NCBI RefSeq assembly: GCF_002204795.1
Contig: NZ_NIXO01000001.1
Coordinates: 186,001-250,000 of the forward strand
Direction: 5' to 3'
Origin: Pseudomonas sp. K2I15
GTDB lineage: Bacteria > Pseudomonadota > Gammaproteobacteria > Pseudomonadales > Pseudomonadaceae
DNA: 64,000 nucleotides
A program made the position numbers and the translations under genes. Position 1 is the first letter of the stretch. Every line of letters starts with the position of its first letter. Under the pieces are notes generated by a model, which was given only the letters and a program-made list of their open reading frames with translations, had not been told where the DNA came from and did no database searches. Below are positions 5,956-16,527 of this stretch, piece by piece.

Positions 5956-7104
5956 ATGAACGCACCTGTCGTGATCGTCGGCACGGGTTTGGCCGGTTAC
6001 AACCTGGCTCGGGAGTTTCGCAAGCTCGATAGCGAAACCCCGCTGTTGCTGATCACCGCAGATGACGGGCGCTCCTACTCCAAGCCCATGCTCTCCACCG
6101 GCTTTGGCAAGAACAAGGAAGCCGACGGCCTGAGCATGGCTGAGCCGGGCGCCATGGCCGAGCAATTGAAGGCCGAAGTGCGCACCCACACCCGCATCAG
6201 CGGTATCGACCCTGGCCACAAGCGCTTGTGGATCGGCGAGGAAGCGGTGGCCTACCGTGACCTGATCCTGGCCTGGGGCGCAGAAACCGTGCGGGTGCCG
6301 GTGCAAGGTGACGCCGCCGAGCTGATTTTCCCGATCAACGACCTCGAAGACTACGCGCGTTTTCGTGCGGCTGCGGCCGGTAAACGCCGGGTGCTGCTGC
6401 TGGGCGCCGGGCTGATCGGCTGCGAGTTCGCCAACGACCTGATCCTCGGCGGTTATGAGATCGACCTGGTGGCGCCGTGCGAGCAAGTCATGCCGACCCT
6501 GCTGCACCCGGCGGCGGCCGCAGCGGTGCAGGCCGGGCTCGAAGGCCTGGGTGCGCGTTTCCACCTGGGCCCGGTGCTCAATCGCCTGCAACGCAACGCT
6601 GAGGGCCTGGAAGCCCACCTGTCGGATGGTGAAGTGATCCAGTGCGACCTGGTGGTGTCTGCCATCGGCTTGCGCCCGCGTGTCGACCTGGCCGCAGCCG
6701 CCGGTTTGCAGATCAACCGCGGGATCATGGTCGACCGCCACCTCAAGACCTCCCACGCCAATATCTACGCCTTGGGCGATTGCGCCGAGGTCGATGGCCT
6801 GAACCTGCTGTACGTGATGCCGCTGATGAGCTGCGCCCGCGCCCTGGCCCAGACCCTGGCGGGCAACGCGACTGCCGTCAGCTACGGCCCGATGCCCGTC
6901 ACGGTAAAAACCCCGATCTGCCCGCTGGTCGTCTCGCCACCCCCACGGGGCACCGAAGGCGTCTGGAGCGTCGAAGGGCAGGGCGCCGACATCAAGGCCC
7001 TGTGCCGCGATGCCAGCGGGCGGCTGCTGGGTTACGCCCTGACTGGCACGGCCGTCATGGAAAAACTGGCCCTCAACAAAGAGCTTCCGCCGTTGCTGGC
7101 GTAA
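5956..7104 (+). CDS. rubB: Rubredoxin-NAD(+) reductase
   Basis: FAD-dependent reductase of 382 aa moving electrons from NADH to rubredoxin. An N-terminal FAD-binding Rossmann motif ([15 protein letters not shown]) is followed by a central NADH-binding motif ([14 protein letters not shown]). The late FAD motif is [13 protein letters not shown]. The start ATG has AAGGAGAAAGGA just upstream. Together with rubA it makes a two-gene operon, as in the alkane-oxidation rubredoxin system and its housekeeping homologues in pseudomonads. Confidence 0.96.
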
Positions 7105-7295
7105 ATACCGGTCGTTCTGTCGGAATAAGCATCATTTTGACCGTAGAAAGGTCGCCGTGAGACTGGCGCAGGCCCCGATGGCATGCCATCCTCACTCCCG
7201 TCTGCCGCAGAGTAGAGCCTGCGGCGCCTTGGGCGCTGCTCCGAAAGAGAGCAGCACGGACATAACAACAAAAAACCGTCAAAGAGGCTTCACTT

Positions 7296-7571
7296 ATGCG
7301 TAAACCAGAACTCGCAGCCGCTATCGCTGAAAAAGCAGACCTGACCAAAGAACAGGCTAACCGCGTACTCAACGCCGTACTCGAAGAAATCACCGGCGCG
7401 CTGCATCGCAAGGACAGCGTCACCCTGGTGGGCTTCGGTACCTTCCTGCAGCGCCACCGCGGCGCCCGCACCGGCAAAAACCCGCAAACCGGCGAGCCGG
7501 TTAAAATCAAGGCGAGCAACACCGTTGCGTTCAAGCCAGGCAAGTCGCTTAAAGACAGCGTTAATCCGTAA
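7296..7571 (+). CDS. hupA: HU-family DNA-binding protein
   Basis: Histone-like protein of 91 aa that bends and compacts DNA as a dimer. The family signature GFGTFLQRHRGARTGKNPQTG is visible around residues 46-66. The N-terminal dimerisation helices (LAAAIAEKADLTKEQANRVL) and the end KIKASNTVAFKPGKSLKDSV are standard. It sits after rubredoxin reductase, as does the PA5348-type HU of P. aeruginosa. That makes it the HU paralogue of this locus rather than the one next to lon. A strong terminator follows. Confidence 0.95.
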   Translation: MRKPELAAAIAEKADLTKEQANRVLNAVLEEITGALHRKDSVTLVGFGTFLQRHRGARTGKNPQTGEPVKIKASNTVAFKPGKSLKDSVNP

Positions 7572-7615
7572 GTAAAGAAGCACGCGCTACGCACACAGCG
7601 AGCGCGGGATGAAAG

Positions 7616-7650
7616 ATGGGCACGCCGACTGGGTCGGGTGCCCATTTTTT
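7616..7650 (+). terminator. Rho-independent terminator of hupA
   Basis: ATGGGCAC pairs with GTGCCCAT (8 bp) and is followed directly by TTTTTT. It marks the left boundary between the core genome and the accessory region. Confidence 0.9.
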
Positions 7651-7790
7651 GTTGAGGGGGAGTGGAAGCGACATAGCTTGTCTGAATCGTAATGTATTAA
7701 GCCTGGAACTTTTTATTCTGTTGAACCACGTAAAAGGTCGAGGTTGCAGGGAGCCCTCTTTAAATTGAGTATTTATTAGAGGTTAATAAT

Positions 7791-8774
7791 ATGAAGTTAT
7801 CCGATCAGTTCTACACCCCTCGTGTTTTACCTCACGTCAATACTGACACCCCACAACAGAAAGTTCCGGTACCCCCCGAGGTTATTCATACGCCGTATGG
7901 TGAGCCTGAGTCGGCTACGCGTAAGGCAGACTATGGTTATCCGGAGGCGACCCATGAAGAACGGGCCAAGAGAGCGTACCGGCCCGGTGGTTTTGGAAAA
8001 GGGGGAGGCGGTAAAACTAAAGACAAACCCAAAGCTGATAAAGAGAAAGGAAAAAAGGCGGAGGAAGTTAATAAAGGTAAACCCAAAGCGGGTAGTTCAT
8101 ATCACAAAACAACGCAGAAACTATCCGGTGGCCCAAACAGTCCGGCGAATGCGGCCCATAACACGCAGACCATCAATGAATTGCAACGTCGAGGCTTTTT
8201 TCCACCTCTTCCCCAAGGGCTTGCAGCTGTTGCGCGTAATGCCATTGTCGAGGCGACACTGAGCGGGTTGGTCAGGCTGGCGTTCACTCCCGCTCAATAT
8301 GCTGTTTCGAACGCCATGGAACAAAGAATCAAGGCACAAACTGAAATGCCCGGCGCGCAAAAAAAGAATGCAGACGGGACTAAATCTACCGTTGACCCCT
8401 CCGCGACCGATCAGCAAAAAATGGAGGCGCGAGTGGAAGGCGCTGAAATAAACGTCGAATTGCTCGCTAATTCCATCATTTCCATAAACGAAGGGCCGGA
8501 TGCCCCGGCAGTCGGCAAGTCGCCCAACGCGCCCACGACAACCGGTGAGCGCTTGGACAACCTTGAAAAACTGCTTGATGCCGCCGAGGGGCCGCTTGAA
8601 GACATCGCGAAAAGGTACGGTCAGGTTTACACGCGGCCAGCTGTCGCTGACTCCTCAGAGCCCCGTACCCCTGAGAGCCGCATGGATCGCATCGAACAAC
8701 GCTACGCAGAGATGAACAAGATGCTTAAAAGGCTGGTCGCGGTGAAGGAGGCTGAAGCGGCAGAGGCTGAATAA
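7791..8774 (+). CDS. Unrecognised Lys/Gly-rich protein, accessory region
   Basis: I do not recognise this 327-aa protein. The start has GAGG about 12 nt upstream. The first 65 residues are rich in Pro, Tyr and charge (VLPHVNTDTPQ, PVPPEVIHTPYG). Residues about 65-105 form a Gly then Lys-rich low-complexity stretch (GGFGKGGGGKTKDKPKADK). A middle moderately hydrophobic region (LAAVARNAIVEATLSGLVRL, near 145-165) is too weak for a sure membrane helix. The last 60 residues look coiled-coil (RMDRIEQRYAEMNKMLKRL). There is no signal peptide and no cysteine. Base composition is AT-richer than the neighbours, suggesting transfer. It stands alone and converges on the orphan immunity-like genes. A secreted or T6SS-linked role is only a guess from position. 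Confidence 0.6.
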   Translation: MKLSDQFYTPRVLPHVNTDTPQQKVPVPPEVIHTPYGEPESATRKADYGYPEATHEERAKRAYRPGGFGKGGGGKTKDKPKADKEKGKKAEEVNKGKPKAGSSYHKTTQKLSGGPNSPANAAHNTQTINELQRRGFFPPLPQGLAAVARNAIVEATLSGLVRLAFTPAQYAVSNAMEQRIKAQTEMPGAQKKNADGTKSTVDPSATDQQKMEARVEGAEINVELLANSIISINEGPDAPAVGKSPNAPTTTGERLDNLEKLLDAAEGPLEDIAKRYGQVYTRPAVADSSEPRTPESRMDRIEQRYAEMNKMLKRLVAVKEAEAAEAE

Positions 8775-8833: not shown

Positions 8834-8881
8834 GATCATTTAAATGGCGCGAGCTTTTGCAGTCCGATCGCGCCAATGATC
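8834..8881. repeat. Inverted repeat between convergent genes
   Basis: GATCATT...GGCGCGA pairs with TCGCGCC...ATGATC across about 15 nt. It lies between two convergent genes, so a bidirectional terminator is the simplest reading. There is no strong T-run. Confidence 0.45.
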
Positions 8882-8974
8882 TCATTTATTCTATTTATAT
8901 TTTCACTAATGTCGGCGTTGATTTTCTCGCTTGGATAATATTCAGGCTTGTCGAAAAACTTGATCTTCAGCAGG

Positions 8975-9451
8975 CTATATCAAATAGGTAATGCGTTGAT
9001 TTCCCTCTGTGACGAAGTCCTTTTCCTCGGCAGCGTCCTGTATTTTTTCCAGACTTAACGTCTCACCCTTTATAAAGCGCTCATGTGTATTGCGCTTTAC
9101 CGTTATCTGCAGCTCGTTCCCTGAAGACAGTGCCTCCAGCACGCGCGTCAACGCCTGCTCATAAACCGCAGTATTGCCCTGTTCCTTGGCCAACGTGCCA
9201 TTCAGCACCAGTGCTGCCTCAATCCATACCCAGTAGTCGTAGTTGTTCTCGAAAGGAATCCGGGACAGTGGCTCGGTGATCTGTCCGGCAAGGTCTTTTT
9301 CGTTAATGACATACAACAGGTACGCCAGACGGGTGAGCGACTCAATGCGCAGCTTGTTGGTTTTGCTGTACTTGGCCGGGACCTTTGCCAGGTAATCCGC
9401 CAGCTGGCCGCTGGCAGATGAAAATGAGTCAAGCGCCTCGGTAATCAGCAT
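8975..9451 (-). CDS. Small helical protein, candidate orphan immunity protein
   Basis: Protein of 158 aa with an all-helical look (LRIESLTRLAYLLYVINEKD, NNYDYWVWIEAALVLNGTLA). The style resembles small immunity-type families such as DUF6707, but that name is from memory and uncertain. The ATG is chosen because GGAG lies 7 nt upstream; the longer frame begins at TTG inside that ribosome site. It overlaps the preceding 97-codon gene by 7 nt, so the two are probably translationally coupled. It lies downstream of an Rhs-immunity pair in the same orientation, as expected for displaced immunity genes. The base composition is lower in GC than the T6SS genes. Confidence 0.6.
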   Translation of the reverse strand: MLITEALDSFSSASGQLADYLAKVPAKYSKTNKLRIESLTRLAYLLYVINEKDLAGQITEPLSRIPFENNYDYWVWIEAALVLNGTLAKEQGNTAVYEQALTRVLEALSSGNELQITVKRNTHERFIKGETLSLEKIQDAAEEKDFVTEGNQRITYLI

Positions 9452-9738
9452 GCGGATCTCCAATCGGTTATTTCACAACTATTTTGACTCCAGCACCAGT
9501 GAACTTGTCCTTGTGGCCCGAACAGATCGCCCAGAACGTCAAGCGCAGCCTCACTGAGCACGAAAAATGGCCTTAGCGAAGCGCTTATATCGAACTGGTA
9601 GTTTTTCTTCCCTGAATCGCTTTTGCGCAACTCCAGCGCTATAGGCGTCGGTGGTTTTCCAGTCGGCATCGCTGCTGGCTGAGGAAAAAAATGAACCCGG
9701 CCACTGATTCGTTTTTTCACTTTATGGTTTGATCCCAT
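9445..9738 (-). CDS. Short protein resembling part of an Imm11/DUF1629 immunity protein
   Basis: Open frame of 97 aa starting at ATG with GAGAA just upstream. The segment ASLRPFFVLSEAALDVLGDL looks like the central part of the Imm11 (DUF1629) family. Those proteins are usually about twice this length. This copy ends soon after it, at a TGA overlapping the start of the next gene (ATGCTGA). It may be a truncated immunity gene or a small two-gene unit with the 158-aa protein. The N-terminus is basic (HKVKKRISGRVHFFPQ) with no signal peptide. Confidence 0.45.
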   Translation of the reverse strand: MGSNHKVKKRISGRVHFFPQPAAMPTGKPPTPIALELRKSDSGKKNYQFDISASLRPFFVLSEAALDVLGDLFGPQGQVHWCWSQNSCEITDWRSAC

Positions 9739-9750
9739 CCGTTCTCGGGT

Positions 9751-10620
9751 TTATTTCTTGCTGTTCATCACCGGGTCGGCGAGGTTCTCATCACGATCAT
9801 TCATGCGCTGCAAAAGTTTGACTGCACGCGAAAAACCTTGAGCGGCTGAGCGTTCCAGCCACTGTCGGGCTTGTTCAAAATCCTGCTCGACTATGTGCCC
9901 ATCAATATACATTTTCGCTAAGTCAAACTTGCCGTGGGCATCACCGGACTCTGCTCTGGGAAAGTGAAACCCCACCGTTTTGGTGGTTGTATCAATCTCC
10001 CAATAGTCGCGTTTGTTTGCCTGGAACAGCCGGACGGTTTGATCGTTTATCCATTCAACAGCGCCTAGCAGGGACTCAAAAAGACCCAACGCGATGCCGA
10101 TTCGTGTAGCGGTGAAAAATGCTTCAGGTGTGTTTTTGGATCCTTGCACCAGAACGCCTATATGGATGTATTGATCCGTACGCCAAGCGGCCGTCGCAGT
10201 GAGCGTTTTGGACGGGTTTTTTAGTGCGCGTCCGGCGGTGCCTGAAAACTGATAGTCACGTTTGATAATCTCGGCATGGAGCTTGTGTATCGGATCGGCA
10301 TCCCAGCCTTTAAGCACCGCGAGCGACAACAGCACTTCATGAATGTCCTCGATTAACGAACGGCGAATGGCACCCTCCGCAGCGTCCGCTGGTAGCTTAT
10401 CGAGGTGCTTGAATGGATGAGAGTAGATGCAGACATCCGTGAGTGTTTGCTCCGCCTCGACTGGTGCTGGCTTAAGGATTATTTTGGCGATTCCGCCAGC
10501 AGGCAGCCTGCATTTGGTTGCAAGGAGATAAATATAGAGTACGGCTGCCTCTCGAATACTTTGAGCCTGGAGGCTCTCCGGAGGGCAGGCGATTTCGAGT
10601 GTTGATAAATATTTGCTCAT
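9751..10620 (-). CDS. Sel1-repeat-ended protein, candidate orphan immunity protein
   Basis: Protein of 289 aa. The first 210 residues match no family I can name. The C-terminus has a Sel1-like repeat: GKFDLAKMYIDGHIVEQDFE followed by ARQWLERSAAQGFSRAVKLL (about residues 230-270). Sel1 repeats mediate protein contact and are common in immunity and scaffold proteins next to polymorphic toxins. The start is the ATG after a weak AGAAA site. It ends 12 nt before the 97-aa gene, so these three genes read as one operon. No partner toxin is present beside it, so it is probably an orphan from an earlier Rhs tip. Confidence 0.6.
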   Translation of the reverse strand: MSKYLSTLEIACPPESLQAQSIREAAVLYIYLLATKCRLPAGGIAKIILKPAPVEAEQTLTDVCIYSHPFKHLDKLPADAAEGAIRRSLIEDIHEVLLSLAVLKGWDADPIHKLHAEIIKRDYQFSGTAGRALKNPSKTLTATAAWRTDQYIHIGVLVQGSKNTPEAFFTATRIGIALGLFESLLGAVEWINDQTVRLFQANKRDYWEIDTTTKTVGFHFPRAESGDAHGKFDLAKMYIDGHIVEQDFEQARQWLERSAAQGFSRAVKLLQRMNDRDENLADPVMNSKK

Positions 10621-10848
10621 CAGAATTTCTATCTCGTCGCGTTTGGCAGTGAGTTGCCCGCTGGGTTAATCACCGATCCTGCCCGGCGTCGTTCAACGTA
10701 ACCGGCTACTCTTGCTTGGCGGGAGGGGGTGATATTCCTATTTACAGTGGCTGGCGAACGATATCGCTTGTAGGAATCGTAATTCGTTAAATAACTCCGT
10801 TACTCGATTACCAATCACCTCTCCAGGCCTCCGCGAATCTGGCTGGGC

Positions 10849-11046
10849 TTATGTAAATTGGACGAGGAAATACCCGGCCTCATCGCCTTCCTTCATCTTT
10901 TTCGCTCGGTTGTCGGCAAAAACGTAGCCGATGCCTCCGCCAAGTAATCCCTCATGGACCTCTTCAGTCGGTGGGGAAACGGGGTCAGACCACGGTTTCA
11001 TAATTATCGAGTAGTCAGTATTTCTCGATTCGTGGATTGACCCCAT
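10849..11046 (-). pseudogene. Possible gene remnant (65 codons) fused to a repeat
   Basis: The frame starts within the repeat block, so its first 25 residues (MGSIHESRN..., MKPWSDPVSPP) are probably not native. The last 35 residues (GGGIGYVFADNRAKKMKEGD...YFLVQFT) look protein-like and may be the surviving C-terminus of a lost immunity or toxin gene. No family is recognised. Confidence 0.25.
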
Positions 11047-11060
11047 TTTCTACTCTGACC
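10973..11060. repeat. Dispersed-element scar with GGGGTCAGACCACG motifs
   Basis: The block GGAAACGGGGTCAGACCACG appears near one end and GTGGATTGACCCCATTTTCT near the other, with TACTCTGACC beyond. The phrase GTGGTCTGACCCC and its variants recur at many loci in proteobacteria, often near REP-associated transposases. Here there is no transposase. I infer a small mobile-element remnant; the identity rests on memory of the motif. Confidence 0.4.
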
Positions 11061-11108
11061 GAGCCGCTCGGTTTTTGGTGAACTTGTAATTCAGTCCTTG
11101 TCCCATTT

Positions 11109-11678
11109 TTATTGAGCGTCGAATAGTGCTTGCGCGCCGAGTACGGCCTTGTTGACCCGTTCCGAGGCTATAGCGCTGTCGACGCGCAAATCTTCGGGCA
11201 AGCACTCGTACTTCATGAGTTCGTTCTCAGCAAGGACTCCACGTAAATGGGCAATGACCCTGAAAATGATGTGGTGCATACGCCAGCAAATGGACGGCTC
11301 AATATTAGCCAACTGTTGCTCTGTCGCGGGTTTGCTAATGCCACCTGTCCAAATTTCCGAATCAAATGCGAATTGAATCGCATCATATCCAGACGACGAC
11401 TTTTTGTAGTCGGGATCGCTGAACAGAATCTTCCAGCGAGGAATACCTGAAAAGCGCAGGCTGCAGAAAATCGGTCGGAATAGGCGTTTTGAGGTATCTA
11501 CCTCATTGATAGAAGCAGGCATTTTTGTATAAAACTTTGCGAAAATCTCGATCAGGTGCCCCAGCGCCGGTGGAATGAGCTCGATATAGCGGGCAATCAC
11601 AAATCCAGGCTCATCTGATGCATTGAGAGCCGGGATGTAAAAAAGATCACCGGGTTTAGGTGTCGTGAGGTTTTTCAT
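11109..11678 (-). CDS. Imm26-like immunity protein for the Rhs toxin
   Basis: Protein of 189 aa encoded 13 nt after the rhs stop, the classic position of the cognate immunity gene. The N-terminus TTPKPGDLFYIPALN...GFVIARYIELIPPALGHLIEI fits the Imm26 family opening (GD-x-hydrophobic-x-IPL, then a strand ending in ARxx). AGAGG lies 8 nt before the chosen ATG. A longer open frame runs back into rhs and is ignored. The protein is expected to stay in the cytosol and bind the Rhs C-terminal nuclease. AT-richer composition matches the toxin tip rather than the Rhs core. Position supports immunity strongly; the family name is less sure. Confidence 0.72.
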   Translation of the reverse strand: MKNLTTPKPGDLFYIPALNASDEPGFVIARYIELIPPALGHLIEIFAKFYTKMPASINEVDTSKRLFRPIFCSLRFSGIPRWKILFSDPDYKKSSSGYDAIQFAFDSEIWTGGISKPATEQQLANIEPSICWRMHHIIFRVIAHLRGVLAENELMKYECLPEDLRVDSAIASERVNKAVLGAQALFDAQ

Positions 11679-11691
11679 ACAGCGGCCTCTT

Positions 11692-14600
11692 CTAAGTGCA
11701 GGATTTGATTTTGCTTGGTTTGATGCCCAGCGCCTTGGCCGCAGCCCTATAATTTTTATAGTGAGTTTTACCGCGTGTATCGGTTCGACTTTTATTGATG
11801 GGTTCGATGACGTTGCCCGGAAACTTGCCCTTGGTTTTGTACTTCTCTCGATAGGCTTGTTCATAGCCTTTTGCTTGAGAGTAAGTCATCTTTCCATCTT
11901 GACCCTTCAACACCCTCAGCTCTCCATTACCCAGCCGCGTAGTCTTGTCATGCTGTCGTTCACGTGCTGAAGGATTCTGTTCGGTATGGCCTATGTAGTA
12001 GGGCGTTTTAGCATTCGGAGCGTAGAGCCCATACACATAAAATCCGGGTTTGTTGAGGGGGGTAGGAGCCCAGCCTAATGGATCCAGCCAGGTAAAAGGG
12101 TTGGCGCCATAAAGATAGAGATTCAAACCCCCTTGCAGGCCAATGGGATCCGGGGTGGTAAAACGACCTACATCCGGATCATAGAACCTGAAGGTGTTGA
12201 AGTGCAGCCCGGTTTCCCGATCCAGATACTGACCTTGAAGTCGCAAGTTCTGTTCTTCGAGATAGTACGGCTCGCGTATCTCCTCAAGCGTATTGCCCCA
12301 GACCCGATAGGTGGCTTGCCAGACTTGATGCCCGTCGACCTCGGTTAATTGCTCCGGTATTCCGTTGAGGTCATTGTGGTAGTACCGGGTGTTCTGTAGG
12401 GCCCCCTGGCCATCCACGCGTGCAAGAGGTTCAAAACCATCGTCCTCGTAGATGTACAAACTGGTTTGTTGATTGCGATGTTCTTGCAGCAACCGCAGGG
12501 CGTCCCACGTAAAACGGGTTTGACTTGATAAGTAGCCACCGTCTTGCTGGAGCGACTTACCTATTCTGCGGCCCAGCGGGTCATAGGACATGGTAACGAC
12601 GGTGCCTTTATCGTTACGCACCTCCGTCAAGCGGCTCTCAGCATCGTAGGCGAACCGCTGTACACCATGGCGAGCGCTGCGCTTTTCGATCATCCGGCCA
12701 AATGCGTCGTAGCGATAACGCTTGTCTTGATAAGTCAGCAGCTTGTTGTGCACCACCAGCCCGGCACCTGGTTGTGGGCCGTCGAGCAGGTTGGCGGCGG
12801 CGTCGTAGGCGAATGTTTCGCGCTGGCCTTGCAGGTTGTCCTGGCTGGCGATGATGCGGCCGGTGGCGTCGTAGTGCAGCAGTTGACGGTGTTGTGCTGC
12901 GGGCTGTTGGTCGAGTTTGCCGATCAGGTTGTCGGCGGGGTCGTACTCGAACTGCTTTTGCGCGGCTGCTGGCATCAACGAGGGCTGGCTGACGTGGCGT
13001 CGTTGGCGTGAGCGCAGGCGGCCGCTGCGGTCGTATTCGCTGCGGGTAATGATCTGGCCTTGGGTGCGCAGCACTTCGCGGTGCAGGCGGTCGCGCTCGA
13101 AGTCGCTGATGACCTGACCGTCGATGTTGATCTGGTGCAGATGGCCGCTGCCGTAGTACAGGCGATTGAGCCAACGGCCGTCCGGCAGTTGGGTCTGGAT
13201 CAGGTTGCCGAGTTCGTCGTAGTGGTGTTGCAGATTGCCCGCTGAACTCTGTTCGGCAAGCAATTGGCCAAGGGCGTCGTAAGCGAAGCCCAGAGCTTGG
13301 GCATTACCCTGCAGGTCGGTGAAGGTGACTGCCGTCAGTTGGTCCAGCGCATCGTAGCTGTAGTCGGTGCTGCCATCGTCGGTGACTTTCGCAATCAGTC
13401 GACCTACCGCATCGCGCTCAAGTTGATGAACGATGGGCGCCGGTGGCATCTCGGGAACCACTGCCAAGCCATTGCCATAAGGCGCTGCAACGGCGGTCAC
13501 CGCCGTGATGTTATTCAGGCGGTCGTAGTCGTAGCGCTTGGCGCTTCCGTCAAGGTCCTGTTGCTCGGTCAACCGATCCCCGGCATCCCAGGCAAACCGA
13601 TAACGTTCGCCGTTCTCGTTGATCAGCGCTTGCAGCCGTCCGTAGTTATCGTAGCCGAATTGCACCTGACGACCGTGGGCATCGGTACGCTGGCGCACCT
13701 GGCCACGACGGTTGTGCTGGTAGAGCGTGGTGTGGCCGGCGGGGTCGGTATAGCCCACCAACTGACCGCTGGCATCACGCTGATACTGCTCGGTGCGCCC
13801 GTCCGGCAGTTGGCTGTTGAGCAAGCGCCCCTGGGCGTCGTAGCTGAATTGAGTACGCTCGCCGAGGGCGTCGGTGATGACCTGCAAATAGCCCCGCTCG
13901 TCGTAGCGAAAGCGCGTTGGGTAACCCGAGCAATCGACATGCTCGACCAGTTGCCCGAACGGGTTCCAGCGCAGCTTTTTACTTTTGCCGGTGGCATCAA
14001 TGATTTCCACGACCTGGCCGTGGACGTCATAACGGTAGCGGGTGATGTGGCCCAGCGGATCGGTTTCGGCAATGCAGTTGCCGCGTGGGTCGTAGCGGTA
14101 CTGCCAGCTGTTGTCGGCTGCGTCGGTCTCCACCAGCGGCAACGCCCAATGTTCCAACCATAGGGTTGAATCGCTGCGACCCAGCGGGTCGGTTTCGCCG
14201 ATCAGGTTGCCCGCCTCGTCGTAGCTGTATTCATAGCGCCCGCCCTGCGGGTCGGTGGCGCTGAGCAACTGGCGTTCGTCGTTCCACTCAAACAGCCAGG
14301 TCTGGTCGAGGTTGTCGCTGTACTGAATGATCTGGTGCTGAGTGTTCCAGTGCCGGGTGCTGACCCGTTGCAAACTGTCGGTAACGCGGGTGAGGCCGGT
14401 CTTCAAGTCATAGTCGAACTGGTAAGCGTCGCCCTCATCGGTCCAGTGTCGGACTACACGCCATTCCAGGTCTTCAATCAAGGCCCAGTCATAGAAGCAG
14501 CGCAACCCGGTGGGCAACTGATGCTCCACCATTCGGCGCCCGGCGTCGTAAGCGAAGCGCCGTTGCACCTGGCCGCTGGCATCGCGTACCTCAGCCAGAC

Positions 14601-16080
14601 TACCTGCTGCGTCGTAGCCATAGCTCACGAGTACTTCACGGTGTTGGTCGGGATAAAGACGTTCGATGCGAGTGACCTGTTCACGGTCCCGGATCAGTTC
14701 GACCTGCACCAGGTCGAAGGTATCGCGCAGCCGCACCAGGCGTCCGCCGGCGTCGTAGTCGATGTGGATGCGGTTGTCGTTGCGGTCACCGAGCTGTATC
14801 AGGCGCAGTCGCGACGGGTTTGCTGGTGTAGGCTCGAACAAGCGGTACACGCCGTCGTCGCTTTCGATCAGTAACTGCCCATTTAGGTGTCGCCGCACCG
14901 CGAGCCCTTCACCCGCACTGAACACCGCGCTGCCCAATGCAATAGAGCCCATGTCGATGGGCCGCCCCTGCTCGTCGGTGTAGACCAGCGTCTCGCCGCC
15001 TTCGGGATGAGGCTGGATCTCAACACACACCTCGTAAGGTACGCCCCAGCCTGCGCCGAATAACCCATCGCGTCGCTCATCGCGGCTGTTGTAGAAGCGC
15101 TGCCAGTCAATCGGCAGGATGCCGGGCAATACAAAATCCAGCTCCTCGGCATCGCCCAGCACTTTCGCGCCGGTTGCGGCGTGCACCGGGTTGGACGAGC
15201 CCATGGCGGCGTTGGCCATGGCCCCCATCGCGCTGCTGACAGCCATTGAGGTCGCACCGCCAATCAACATGCACGGCAGTTTGCTGAAGAACTTCCCCTT
15301 GCCACCCTTGAGCATCAGTAACGCGGTGACCGCCAGCCCTACGCCCGGAGTCTTGCCGCTGCGAATTTCACGCACCACGACCGAGCCGCCGCCAATGGTC
15401 ACGTTCGACGAAATCAGTCCGGACGACACCACCGTCGCATCGCAAGTGCTGCGGTCGCCGCTACGGACGGCGGGTTGGCCGTTGACCGTGACCTTTTCCG
15501 AACCCTCTGCCAGAAACTGCGGCGGCATTGGCGGATGCTTCATGCAGACGACCAGGTCCAGCGGTTTGGGCACCGCGCCGGGTGCGGGAGTAGCGACAGT
15601 GGGGCGCCACATCTGGGAGAAAAAGCTCTCGGCCATGTCCAGGTAACTGGCTTCTGCTTCAGGCTTGGGGTCTTCCTGTTCTATACCAGCCGGTGCGACA
15701 TGGGACGTGATCGCACCGGCAGCGCGGGCGGCAGGAATGTTATTGGTGAGGGTATTGGTGGAGCCGGTAAGAATATTTGCCTGCACCGTGGGCGGGAACA
15801 GTGCGTTGCTGAAGCTCTCGCATAAATTGCTTAACCCCTTGTCCGCCCCGCTCTTGCTCATGGCGAAGCCGACAATCGTGCCCACAACTGCGCCGAGCAA
15901 GAAGCAGCCGAGCCCGCCGGTGACGACGGTAATGCCGGTGGCGGCAACCACGGCAGCGGTCGCGACGGCAGTGATCGCGATATTGGCAGCCACCTCCAGC
16001 ACACCGCCGAGGATGTCAGCCATCATCGAGGTATGCGACAGCGCATCGCCCATGCGGGCCGCCCATAGAGCGTCAGACAT
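11692..16080 (-). CDS. rhs: T6SS Rhs effector: prePAAR-TM-PAAR, Rhs cage, GIY-YIG-like nuclease tip
   Basis: Polymorphic toxin of 1462 aa. The prePAAR motif AARMGDALSH (residues 7-16) precedes a two-helix membrane region (about 28-75), the part an EagR chaperone binds. The PAAR domain spans about 178-245 (KHPPMPPQFLAEG...VRSGDRSTCD). From about 300 on it is Rhs cage with many YD repeats. The core ends with DPIGLQGGLNLYLYGANPFT then WLDPLGW, the conserved self-cleavage region. The tip (1338-1462) has FYVYGLYAPNAKTPYYIGHT and ARERQHDK, a GIY-YIG endonuclease pattern, so DNA cleavage is the likely activity. The tip region is visibly AT-richer than the core, consistent with tip exchange. The PAAR domain should cap VgrG. 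Confidence 0.93.
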   Translation of the reverse strand: MSDALWAARMGDALSHTSMMADILGGVLEVAANIAITAVATAAVVAATGITVVTGGLGCFLLGAVVGTIVGFAMSKSGADKGLSNLCESFSNALFPPTVQANILTGSTNTLTNNIPAARAAGAITSHVAPAGIEQEDPKPEAEASYLDMAESFFSQMWRPTVATPAPGAVPKPLDLVVCMKHPPMPPQFLAEGSEKVTVNGQPAVRSGDRSTCDATVVSSGLISSNVTIGGGSVVVREIRSGKTPGVGLAVTALLMLKGGKGKFFSKLPCMLIGGATSMAVSSAMGAMANAAMGSSNPVHAATGAKVLGDAEELDFVLPGILPIDWQRFYNSRDERRDGLFGAGWGVPYEVCVEIQPHPEGGETLVYTDEQGRPIDMGSIALGSAVFSAGEGLAVRRHLNGQLLIESDDGVYRLFEPTPANPSRLRLIQLGDRNDNRIHIDYDAGGRLVRLRDTFDLVQVELIRDREQVTRIERLYPDQHREVLVSYGYDAAGSLAEVRDASGQVQRRFAYDAGRRMVEHQLPTGLRCFYDWALIEDLEWRVVRHWTDEGDAYQFDYDLKTGLTRVTDSLQRVSTRHWNTQHQIIQYSDNLDQTWLFEWNDERQLLSATDPQGGRYEYSYDEAGNLIGETDPLGRSDSTLWLEHWALPLVETDAADNSWQYRYDPRGNCIAETDPLGHITRYRYDVHGQVVEIIDATGKSKKLRWNPFGQLVEHVDCSGYPTRFRYDERGYLQVITDALGERTQFSYDAQGRLLNSQLPDGRTEQYQRDASGQLVGYTDPAGHTTLYQHNRRGQVRQRTDAHGRQVQFGYDNYGRLQALINENGERYRFAWDAGDRLTEQQDLDGSAKRYDYDRLNNITAVTAVAAPYGNGLAVVPEMPPAPIVHQLERDAVGRLIAKVTDDGSTDYSYDALDQLTAVTFTDLQGNAQALGFAYDALGQLLAEQSSAGNLQHHYDELGNLIQTQLPDGRWLNRLYYGSGHLHQINIDGQVISDFERDRLHREVLRTQGQIITRSEYDRSGRLRSRQRRHVSQPSLMPAAAQKQFEYDPADNLIGKLDQQPAAQHRQLLHYDATGRIIASQDNLQGQRETFAYDAAANLLDGPQPGAGLVVHNKLLTYQDKRYRYDAFGRMIEKRSARHGVQRFAYDAESRLTEVRNDKGTVVTMSYDPLGRRIGKSLQQDGGYLSSQTRFTWDALRLLQEHRNQQTSLYIYEDDGFEPLARVDGQGALQNTRYYHNDLNGIPEQLTEVDGHQVWQATYRVWGNTLEEIREPYYLEEQNLRLQGQYLDRETGLHFNTFRFYDPDVGRFTTPDPIGLQGGLNLYLYGANPFTWLDPLGWAPTPLNKPGFYVYGLYAPNAKTPYYIGHTEQNPSARERQHDKTTRLGNGELRVLKGQDGKMTYSQAKGYEQAYREKYKTKGKFPGNVIEPINKSRTDTRGKTHYKNYRAAAKALGIKPSKIKSCT

Positions 16081-16092
16081 GCACGGTGCTCA

Positions 16093-16527
16093 TCAGGAAA
16101 TCGCGTCGAACGACAATGAGTTTTTGATCGTCGCCCAATGCGCCGCTTCGGCATCACCCAGCTTGTCGGCCTTCACGTAACTCAAGGCGAGCATCTTGCG
16201 CGTGCCGGGCAATACCAGCGCCAATTGATACTGGAATACCTTGTCGTTGCCCTTGTTGAACTGGCTGCGCAACTCGATGCCTTCCACTTCCTGGGCCGCG
16301 CCCAGACGCACGGTAACACCCGGCTGGTAGCGCAGGTCCTGCACCTGTTTTTCCAGGCGTTTGAGCTGGTCGTCGAAGTTGCTCTGCAAGGTTTCACCCT
16401 CGGCAAGGAAGCTGCGGCTGACGATCAGCGAGGTGCCCAAATCGGGGAACTTGAGGATGTTGATCGTCGCGTCCTGCAGCTCGCCGGCAGGCAGTTGGAA
16501 CTGGAATTCGTTGATTCGGTACGTCAT
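16093..16527 (-). CDS. eagR: EagR-type DUF1795 chaperone for the Rhs effector
   Basis: Cytosolic adaptor of 144 aa in the DUF1795/DcrB-like family. The opening MTYRINEFQFQLP and the middle VSRSFLAEGETLQSNFDDQL are typical. Eag chaperones shield the N-terminal transmembrane helices of prePAAR effectors before loading on VgrG. The gene lies exactly between vgrG (15 nt upstream) and rhs (12 nt downstream), as eagT6 lies next to tse6 in P. aeruginosa. The presence of a prePAAR motif in the neighbouring Rhs makes the assignment firm. Confidence 0.92.
   Translation of the reverse strand: MTYRINEFQFQLPAGELQDATINILKFPDLGTSLIVSRSFLAEGETLQSNFDDQLKRLEKQVQDLRYQPGVTVRLGAAQEVEGIELRSQFNKGNDKVFQYQLALVLPGTRKMLALSYVKADKLGDAEAAHWATIKNSLSFDAIS

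Follow-up and report, generated by a model that had tools for sequence, protein, structure and literature searches.

Introduction

Arrays of immunity genes that form through sequential displacement of type VI secretion system (T6SS) effectors are known from Vibrio cholerae (PMC5361080). Orphan modules have also been described in CDI and Rhs systems (PMC3150448), and in Snodgrassella alvi Rhs C-terminal displacement is found together with decaying orphan immunity genes (PMC5727410). The process itself is therefore known: C-terminal displacement that leaves orphan immunity genes has been published for several bacteria. The phrase "immunity gene array" also occurs in a paper on P. aeruginosa (PMC11751169), there in the reference list only.

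The locus described here was found in a window of 64,000 nucleotides from Pseudomonas sp. K2I15 (G000:C1:186001-250000), whose draft genome has 6.64 Mb in 140 contigs. Three open reading frames, here called A, B and C, follow an Rhs gene and its putative immunity gene. As in the V. cholerae arrays, old immunity genes accumulate behind the pair in use, each orphan matches a pair in use elsewhere, and the 3' end of the effector gene may remain (PMC5361080). However, the carrier in the window is, across species, a Pseudomonas Rhs core and most of the remnants are broken. The CDI and Rhs orphan modules and the S. alvi loci share with it the order of a main gene with its immunity gene, followed by truncated tips with theirs (PMC3150448, PMC5727410), but in the window the tips are reduced to their last codons, with no orphan toxin domain. 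At the Rhs1 locus of Serratia, an orphan immunity gene also stands behind the pair in use and matches the pair of a sister strain (PMC10539506). In that case protection has been demonstrated, while for the window it is only predicted, and the Serratia toxins are NADases.

Individual modules have counterparts as well. In Salmonella, an Rhs NucA/NucB tip is paired with DUF6707 (PMC11669294), which gives the same toxin domain, an immunity candidate of the 204-aa type and adjacent genes; that pair is in use, while ours is orphaned and frame-broken. Tox-URI2 systems with Imm9, Imm12, Imm39 or Imm44 have been catalogued together with the Imm families of Tox-AHH (PMC3482391), and Tox-URI2 is found in Salmonella (PMC10469887), including Salmonella Dublin (PMC8867033). 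Here too the tip sits on a T6SS-linked carrier and is followed by an immunity gene (PMC3482391, PMC8867033); however, A matches no named Imm family in Pfam scans. In Salmonella Dublin, the immunity candidate lacks a named domain (PMC8867033).

Organisation of the locus

The T6SS block lies on the minus strand and consists of clpV, vgrG, a dcrB-like gene and rhs (assigned by Pfam, clpV by eye). A, B and C lie downstream of the Rhs/Imm26-like pair in the same direction, exactly as the initial annotation had placed them, see Table 1. That annotation attributed the three genes to successive replacement of the Rhs tip, with the old immunity genes retained against sister strains. For the origin we reach the same explanation: the array is very probably what repeated C-terminal displacement of Rhs has left at a single T6SS effector slot. 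Retention for protection has indirect support, and for A alone.

Table 1. Features of the Rhs locus in the window (all on the minus strand).
Feature	Position	Strand	Description
rhs in use	11692..16080	-	1462 aa; PAAR motif and RHS repeats (Pfam); tip not classified
Imm26-like ORF, putative immunity of tip in use	11109..11678	-	189 aa; Imm26 E 0.011
Stub of fourth displaced module	10852..10962	-	final 37 codons of an immunity-like protein of 220 aa
Lost Tox-URI2 tip, 3' end, just before A	10629..10671	-	DNA match to L038, L015 and L017 up to 10670/10671
A, full-length Sel1-ended immunity gene	9751..10620	-	289 aa; relatives 81-87% identical
ORF B	9445..9738	-	97 aa
Lost AHH tip, near-end piece	9654..9685	-	32 nt; 29/32 bases identical to L027 8329-8360
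Imm11-type immunity gene fragment inside ORF B	9527..9658	-	132 nt; ~44 codons of a 186-aa gene
Lost NucA/NucB tip, last codons and stop, just before C	9468..9490	-	DNA match to L019; ORF end at 9468
C, DUF6707 immunity gene, N-terminal part	8975..9451	-	158 aa from ATG; 162 aa from TTG at 9463
C, C-terminal remainder	8836..8979 (about)	-	46 residues, other frame

The tip in use matches no Pfam family properly; the one hit is NUMOD1 at E 0.022, and its appearance is presumably GIY-YIG-like. The ORF behind it had been taken for Imm26. It is indeed present, but scores 16.4 bits against the Imm26 (PF15428) cut-off of 23.3, and its relative in G017, where the same tip and ORF are paired at 80% DNA identity, has no Imm26 match in Pfam.

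Between vgrG and rhs lies a DcrB-family gene (16093-16527, minus strand, E 1.2e-19), which we take to be the position of an adaptor or chaperone. At the other end, the array is adjoined by a 327-aa ORF on the opposite strand (7791-8774, plus) that reaches the cut-off of no Pfam or NCBIfam family; relatives occupy the equivalent position in G351 and G305 (64%), and are present in the array of G182 (49%). Between 8700 and 11800, promoter-like sites (3 against a mean of 3.5) and terminator-like sites (5 against 3.5) occur at chance level and give no hint that the array is expressed.

A full-length putative immunity gene linked to Tox-URI2

A was described as ending in Sel1. The repeat does close the protein, although in the window it scores 29.8 bits, just under the Pfam cut-off of 30.7; the relative in G351 reaches 32.9. 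In Pfam, NCBIfam and PADLOC, A has Sel1-type and weak matches only, nearly all C-terminal, and the single PADLOC match is weak and falls in the Sel1 part (E 9.7e-4). The first ~210 residues match none of the families searched. At a Pfam threshold of E 1, Sel1 is the sole match of A, and neither Imm9, Imm12, Imm39 nor Imm44 is hit, all of which we take to be present in the Pfam copy used; the G351 protein matches Sel1 and, at E 0.13, MupG_N. In a PDB sequence search with a profile of nine sequences, 19 chains matched at E 0.1. Every match falls within residues 210-285, and apart from one E. coli locus protein the chains are of Sel1, TPR or MotX type. The AlphaFold model (7-sequence alignment) has a mean pLDDT of 52.5 and is thus too poor for a fold search.

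Within the genus, A matched 8 of 199 genomes. Four of these (G014, G075, G153 and G163) were left out of the counts, since the match is confined to the Sel1 repeat; the others are G000 itself, G168, G006, where the match is in pieces, and G182, which has two copies. A wider scan covered 84,980 species with one genome per species and reaches only sequences with two short peptide patterns. It returned seven loci. Five are in Pseudomonas, two of them being G168 and G351; the sixth, 57% identical over 139 residues, lies at a contig end in a Peptococcaceae bin, and the seventh, 25% identical, is a frame-broken locus of Chitinilyticum aquatile with stop codons inside the stretch. Leaving out the contig-end and the frame-broken locus, there are nine Pseudomonas copies in eight genomes. 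The plasmid collection holds no match to A. By eye, a sequence resembling the end of a Tox-URI2 tip also precedes the Chitinilyticum relative (L052, ~6900-7950).

The surroundings of the nine copies tie A to one kind of tip. Two copies stand directly behind an intact Rhs, of 1456 aa in G351 and of 1454 aa in P. karstica (L046). Both Rhs proteins have the same tip end, and the G351 tip (L038) is Tox-URI2 (Pfam, E 1.3e-18). In G182 (copy 1) and P. viridiflava p4.D11, an Rhs fragment with a Tox-URI2-type tip precedes A, the fragment ORF of the latter ending inside the tip. Four copies are preceded by the tip-end scar alone: the window, G168, G006 and, weakly, P. fluorescens FW300-N2E3. Only the second copy in G182 lacks a tip remnant. 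In the window, the ORF ending at the scar matches intact tips with E 2.8e-6 to 3.4e-5 (tblastn against the set of fetched loci), and the DNA from 10671 to 9741 corresponds to the Rhs-tip end plus A in the relatives.

A search with the partner tip of A found it in 7 of 398 genomes, at 100% in G182, 91% in G351 and 43-51% in the other five. At four of these five loci (L039-L042) the ORFs behind Rhs differ from A; the G305 tip is also Tox-URI2 (Pfam, E 6.8e-14). As related tips have other immunity genes, A would serve one subtype only.

A also looks constrained, over a period that would include the time before displacement: pairwise dN/dS against six relatives is 0.10-0.15. Out of 129 possible synonymous and 591 possible nonsynonymous changes, 8 and 3 are private to A; copies that are still paired show 7 and 2 (G351) and 9 and 2 (P. 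karstica). A is likely a working orphan immunity gene and the only one of the three ORFs for which standing protection is plausible. It would probably still neutralise Tox-URI2 tips of its own subtype when these come from relatives. Binding of the toxin domain, the usual mode of immunity proteins of this kind, is the most likely way. The putative family, with ~210-220 residues without assignment and a closing Sel1 repeat, is seen in Pseudomonas and, distantly, in Chitinilyticum and the Peptococcaceae bin. We lean, by a little, towards regarding A as both the founder of an undescribed immunity family for one Tox-URI2 tip subtype and a shield that still works. The new element is modest, a Tox-URI2-linked immunity candidate that carries no family name and can be put to the test. 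The literature on URI2, immunity proteins, Sel1 and Rhs led to PMC3482391, and the passages of that paper on these subjects list no Sel1-ended Tox-URI2 immunity protein.

Remnants of three further modules

ORF B had been called an Imm11-like fragment, which is true of only part of it. A mid-gene piece of an Imm11-type gene is present, with DNA identities of 75.8% (L027) and 71.2% (L028) over its 132 nt, but the rest of the ORF is foreign, both ends being neighbouring sequence. ORF B has no Pfam match at E 1. The two close full-length relatives score 20.5 and 17.2 bits against Imm11 (PF07791) and miss the cut-off of 22.1, so the gene is labelled Imm11-type only. Relatives occur in 5 of 398 genomes, our own included. 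In G100 and G135, a 186-aa relative lies directly behind an Rhs of 1472 aa; the G100 tip is AHH (Pfam, E 1.8e-18) and the G135 tip reads alike. The more distant B-like genes of G071 (61%) and G084 (50%) do not immediately follow an AHH-tipped Rhs and were left out of the pairs. The AHH scar in the window is far from chance, as none of 60 shuffles of the tip end reaches its 29 identities (maximum 21). To judge from the sequence, B is an accidental ORF, the remnant of a deletion, and almost certainly without any function.

C matches DUF6707 (PF20453) with 110.9 bits against a cut-off of 27 (Pfam, E 9.6e-32), over profile positions 91-246 of 279. The 158-aa protein of the initial annotation is a real ORF, but it is the frame-broken part of a longer gene: the frame breaks near 8975, the ORF lacks 46 C-terminal residues, and the genome search gives the gene in two pieces. 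Its relative in G090 is 76% identical, and the window from 9490 to 8836 matches that locus (L019) without interruption at 72% DNA identity, from the last codons of the NucA/NucB tip through the entire gene. A PDB sequence search with the G090 protein gave one chain, at E 0.066. Relatives of C were found in 3 of 199 and 5 of 358 genomes, our own included. They stand directly behind an intact Rhs in G090 (208 aa behind 1465 aa) and in G070 (204 aa behind 1468 aa). The G090 tip is NucA/NucB (Pfam, E 5.5e-6) and that of G070 reads alike. In G349, the relative comes after an ORF of Imm11-type appearance and an Rhs fragment whose tip end is the same, and in G321 the contig starts just before it.

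The dN of C against G090 is 0.16 before the break and 0.15 after it. As both sides are equally conserved, the break is young or an assembly error. The latter would mean that C is intact in the cell and only the assembled or determined sequence is at fault, and a draft of 140 contigs leaves room for this. However, the break lies outside any long single-base run, and we regard such an error as decidedly unlikely. In its present state C is probably without function.

A fourth module, overlooked by the initial annotation, has left a stub between the Imm26-like gene and A. It is 92% identical to its counterpart (E 2.3e-16), with a DNA match of 111 nt to G182. The 220-aa protein is found in 23 of 398 genomes, including the stub itself. 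At 20 loci, the 1500 bases upstream of the gene were inspected: in 10, an Rhs ORF that is truncated by the stretch's edge but has at least 495 codons ends directly before it. Of the others, two show a shorter piece of Rhs or tip, two a further copy of the gene and six something else. The tip of this module (G170) matches no Pfam family, and the part of the module upstream of the stub was not found in the window. A search of the own genome with 10660-11120 matched only itself, and 10672-11110 has no match in the plasmid collection.

The claim of three orphan immunity genes is thus too strong: A alone is full length, while B keeps ~44 of 186 codons and C is short of 46 residues. This bears on the view that all three ORFs yield protective proteins and together form a working shield. 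A is full length and constrained, residues 1-158 of C are intact and match DUF6707, and an orphan Rhs immunity gene is protective in Serratia (PMC10539506). Yet so little is left of B, the residues missing from C are conserved ones, and the fourth module is reduced to a stub, all of which makes a threefold shield very improbable. That just one of the four displaced modules keeps its immunity gene at full length tempers the idea that such arrays are standing shields.

Could the three ORFs instead form one operon of unrelated, non-toxin function, a condition under which they should always occur without toxins? The Sel1 repeat of A is common in unrelated proteins, and the B-like genes of G071 and G084 lie apart from AHH Rhs genes. 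However, each of the orphans has a relative directly behind an intact Rhs (A in G351 and P. karstica, B in G100 and G135, C in G090 and G070), with a tip of its own in each case, as the check proposed by the initial annotation had asked, and the window retains the tip ends. An unrelated operon is hardly credible.

One slot and its probable earlier states

The slot is bordered by clpV-vgrG-dcrB-rhs on one side and by a block of HU, FAD-oxidoreductase, ubiA and phoB genes on the other. Among 21 stretches tested for these flanks, nine have the rhs N-terminus together with HU, FAD oxidoreductase, ubiA and phoB (L019, L027, L028, L038, L041, L042, L046, L050 and L055, the rhs match of L055 being an inner piece of the G182 array). 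L053 has all flank genes except phoB. For G168 (L017, L056) and G182 (L015, L055), the two sides of the slot are on adjoining or nearby stretches; the remaining stretches lie inside arrays, at contig edges or at other places. The shared flanks put the pairs of A (L038, L046), B (L027, L028) and C (L019) at the slot of the window. The Rhs partners thus carry different tips in an orthologous slot, visible for all but G070 (L020), where only the clpV-vgrG-dcrB-rhs side can be seen. In-between states, in which a tip-bearing Rhs fragment precedes the immunity gene, exist for A (G182, P. viridiflava p4.D11) and for C (G349).

Two P. viridiflava isolates preserve the states on either side of one replacement. 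In p4.G3 (L049/L038), the Rhs is intact, carries the Tox-URI2 tip and is followed by A. In the same slot of p4.D11 (L050), another tip and immunity gene are in use and a broken Tox-URI2 fragment precedes A.

We suggest that the array arose in repeated steps. A new module of tip plus immunity gene would recombine onto the Rhs core, no more than the final codons of the displaced tip would survive, and the former immunity gene would end up further out. Four modules would have been displaced in this way: an unclassified one, Tox-URI2 with A, AHH with the Imm11-type B, and NucA/NucB with the DUF6707 gene C. Homology, gene order, the scars of the tips, the common slot and the in-between states can be seen in the sequences; the direction in time, recombination as the mechanism and protection through A are inferred. 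The scars before A and C retain the stop codon of the tip and the stretch up to the immunity start, which may keep the old gene translatable. Searches of the own draft genome with the cognate tips gave no match, a positive control being available only in the search with the partner tip of A. Read in this way, the locus documents in compact form how the tip at one Rhs slot was replaced four times. Its junctions can be read within tens of bases, and relatives preserve earlier and in-between states.

We also considered that modules further away from rhs might be more damaged. The fourth stub speaks against this, being the nearest to Rhs and the shortest remnant. Decay is not ordered by distance, a point that counts against the displacement reading.

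Alternatively, the 3' array, or much of it, could have been imported ready-made from another strain through homologous recombination. Comparable events were reported by Kirchberger et al. (PMC5361080), and G017 has the same pair in use with different genes behind it, so pair and array travel separately. However, the array would still have had to form by displacement somewhere, and the order A-B-C was found in no other genome examined. Import as a block is unlikely, and we prefer stepwise displacement at the slot.

Other arrays at this slot differ in content. Behind the shared pair, G017 (L053, 7295-11119) has a 208-aa ORF that resembles the immunity gene in use in p4.D11, a piece of Rhs with an AHH tip, and one gene each of the Imm11 (E 3.2e-14) and Imm26 (E 6.4e-11) families. 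In G182 (C1, ~6400800-6454000; L015, L054, L016, L055), ~53 kb separate the rhs start from the HU gene of the slot, an interval packed with Rhs pieces and immunity-like ORFs. In G168, the ORF that immediately follows the Rhs in use (L017, 8205-8972, plus strand), its immunity candidate, encodes a pentapeptide-repeat protein, and a 255-aa ORF in G182 is similar to it.
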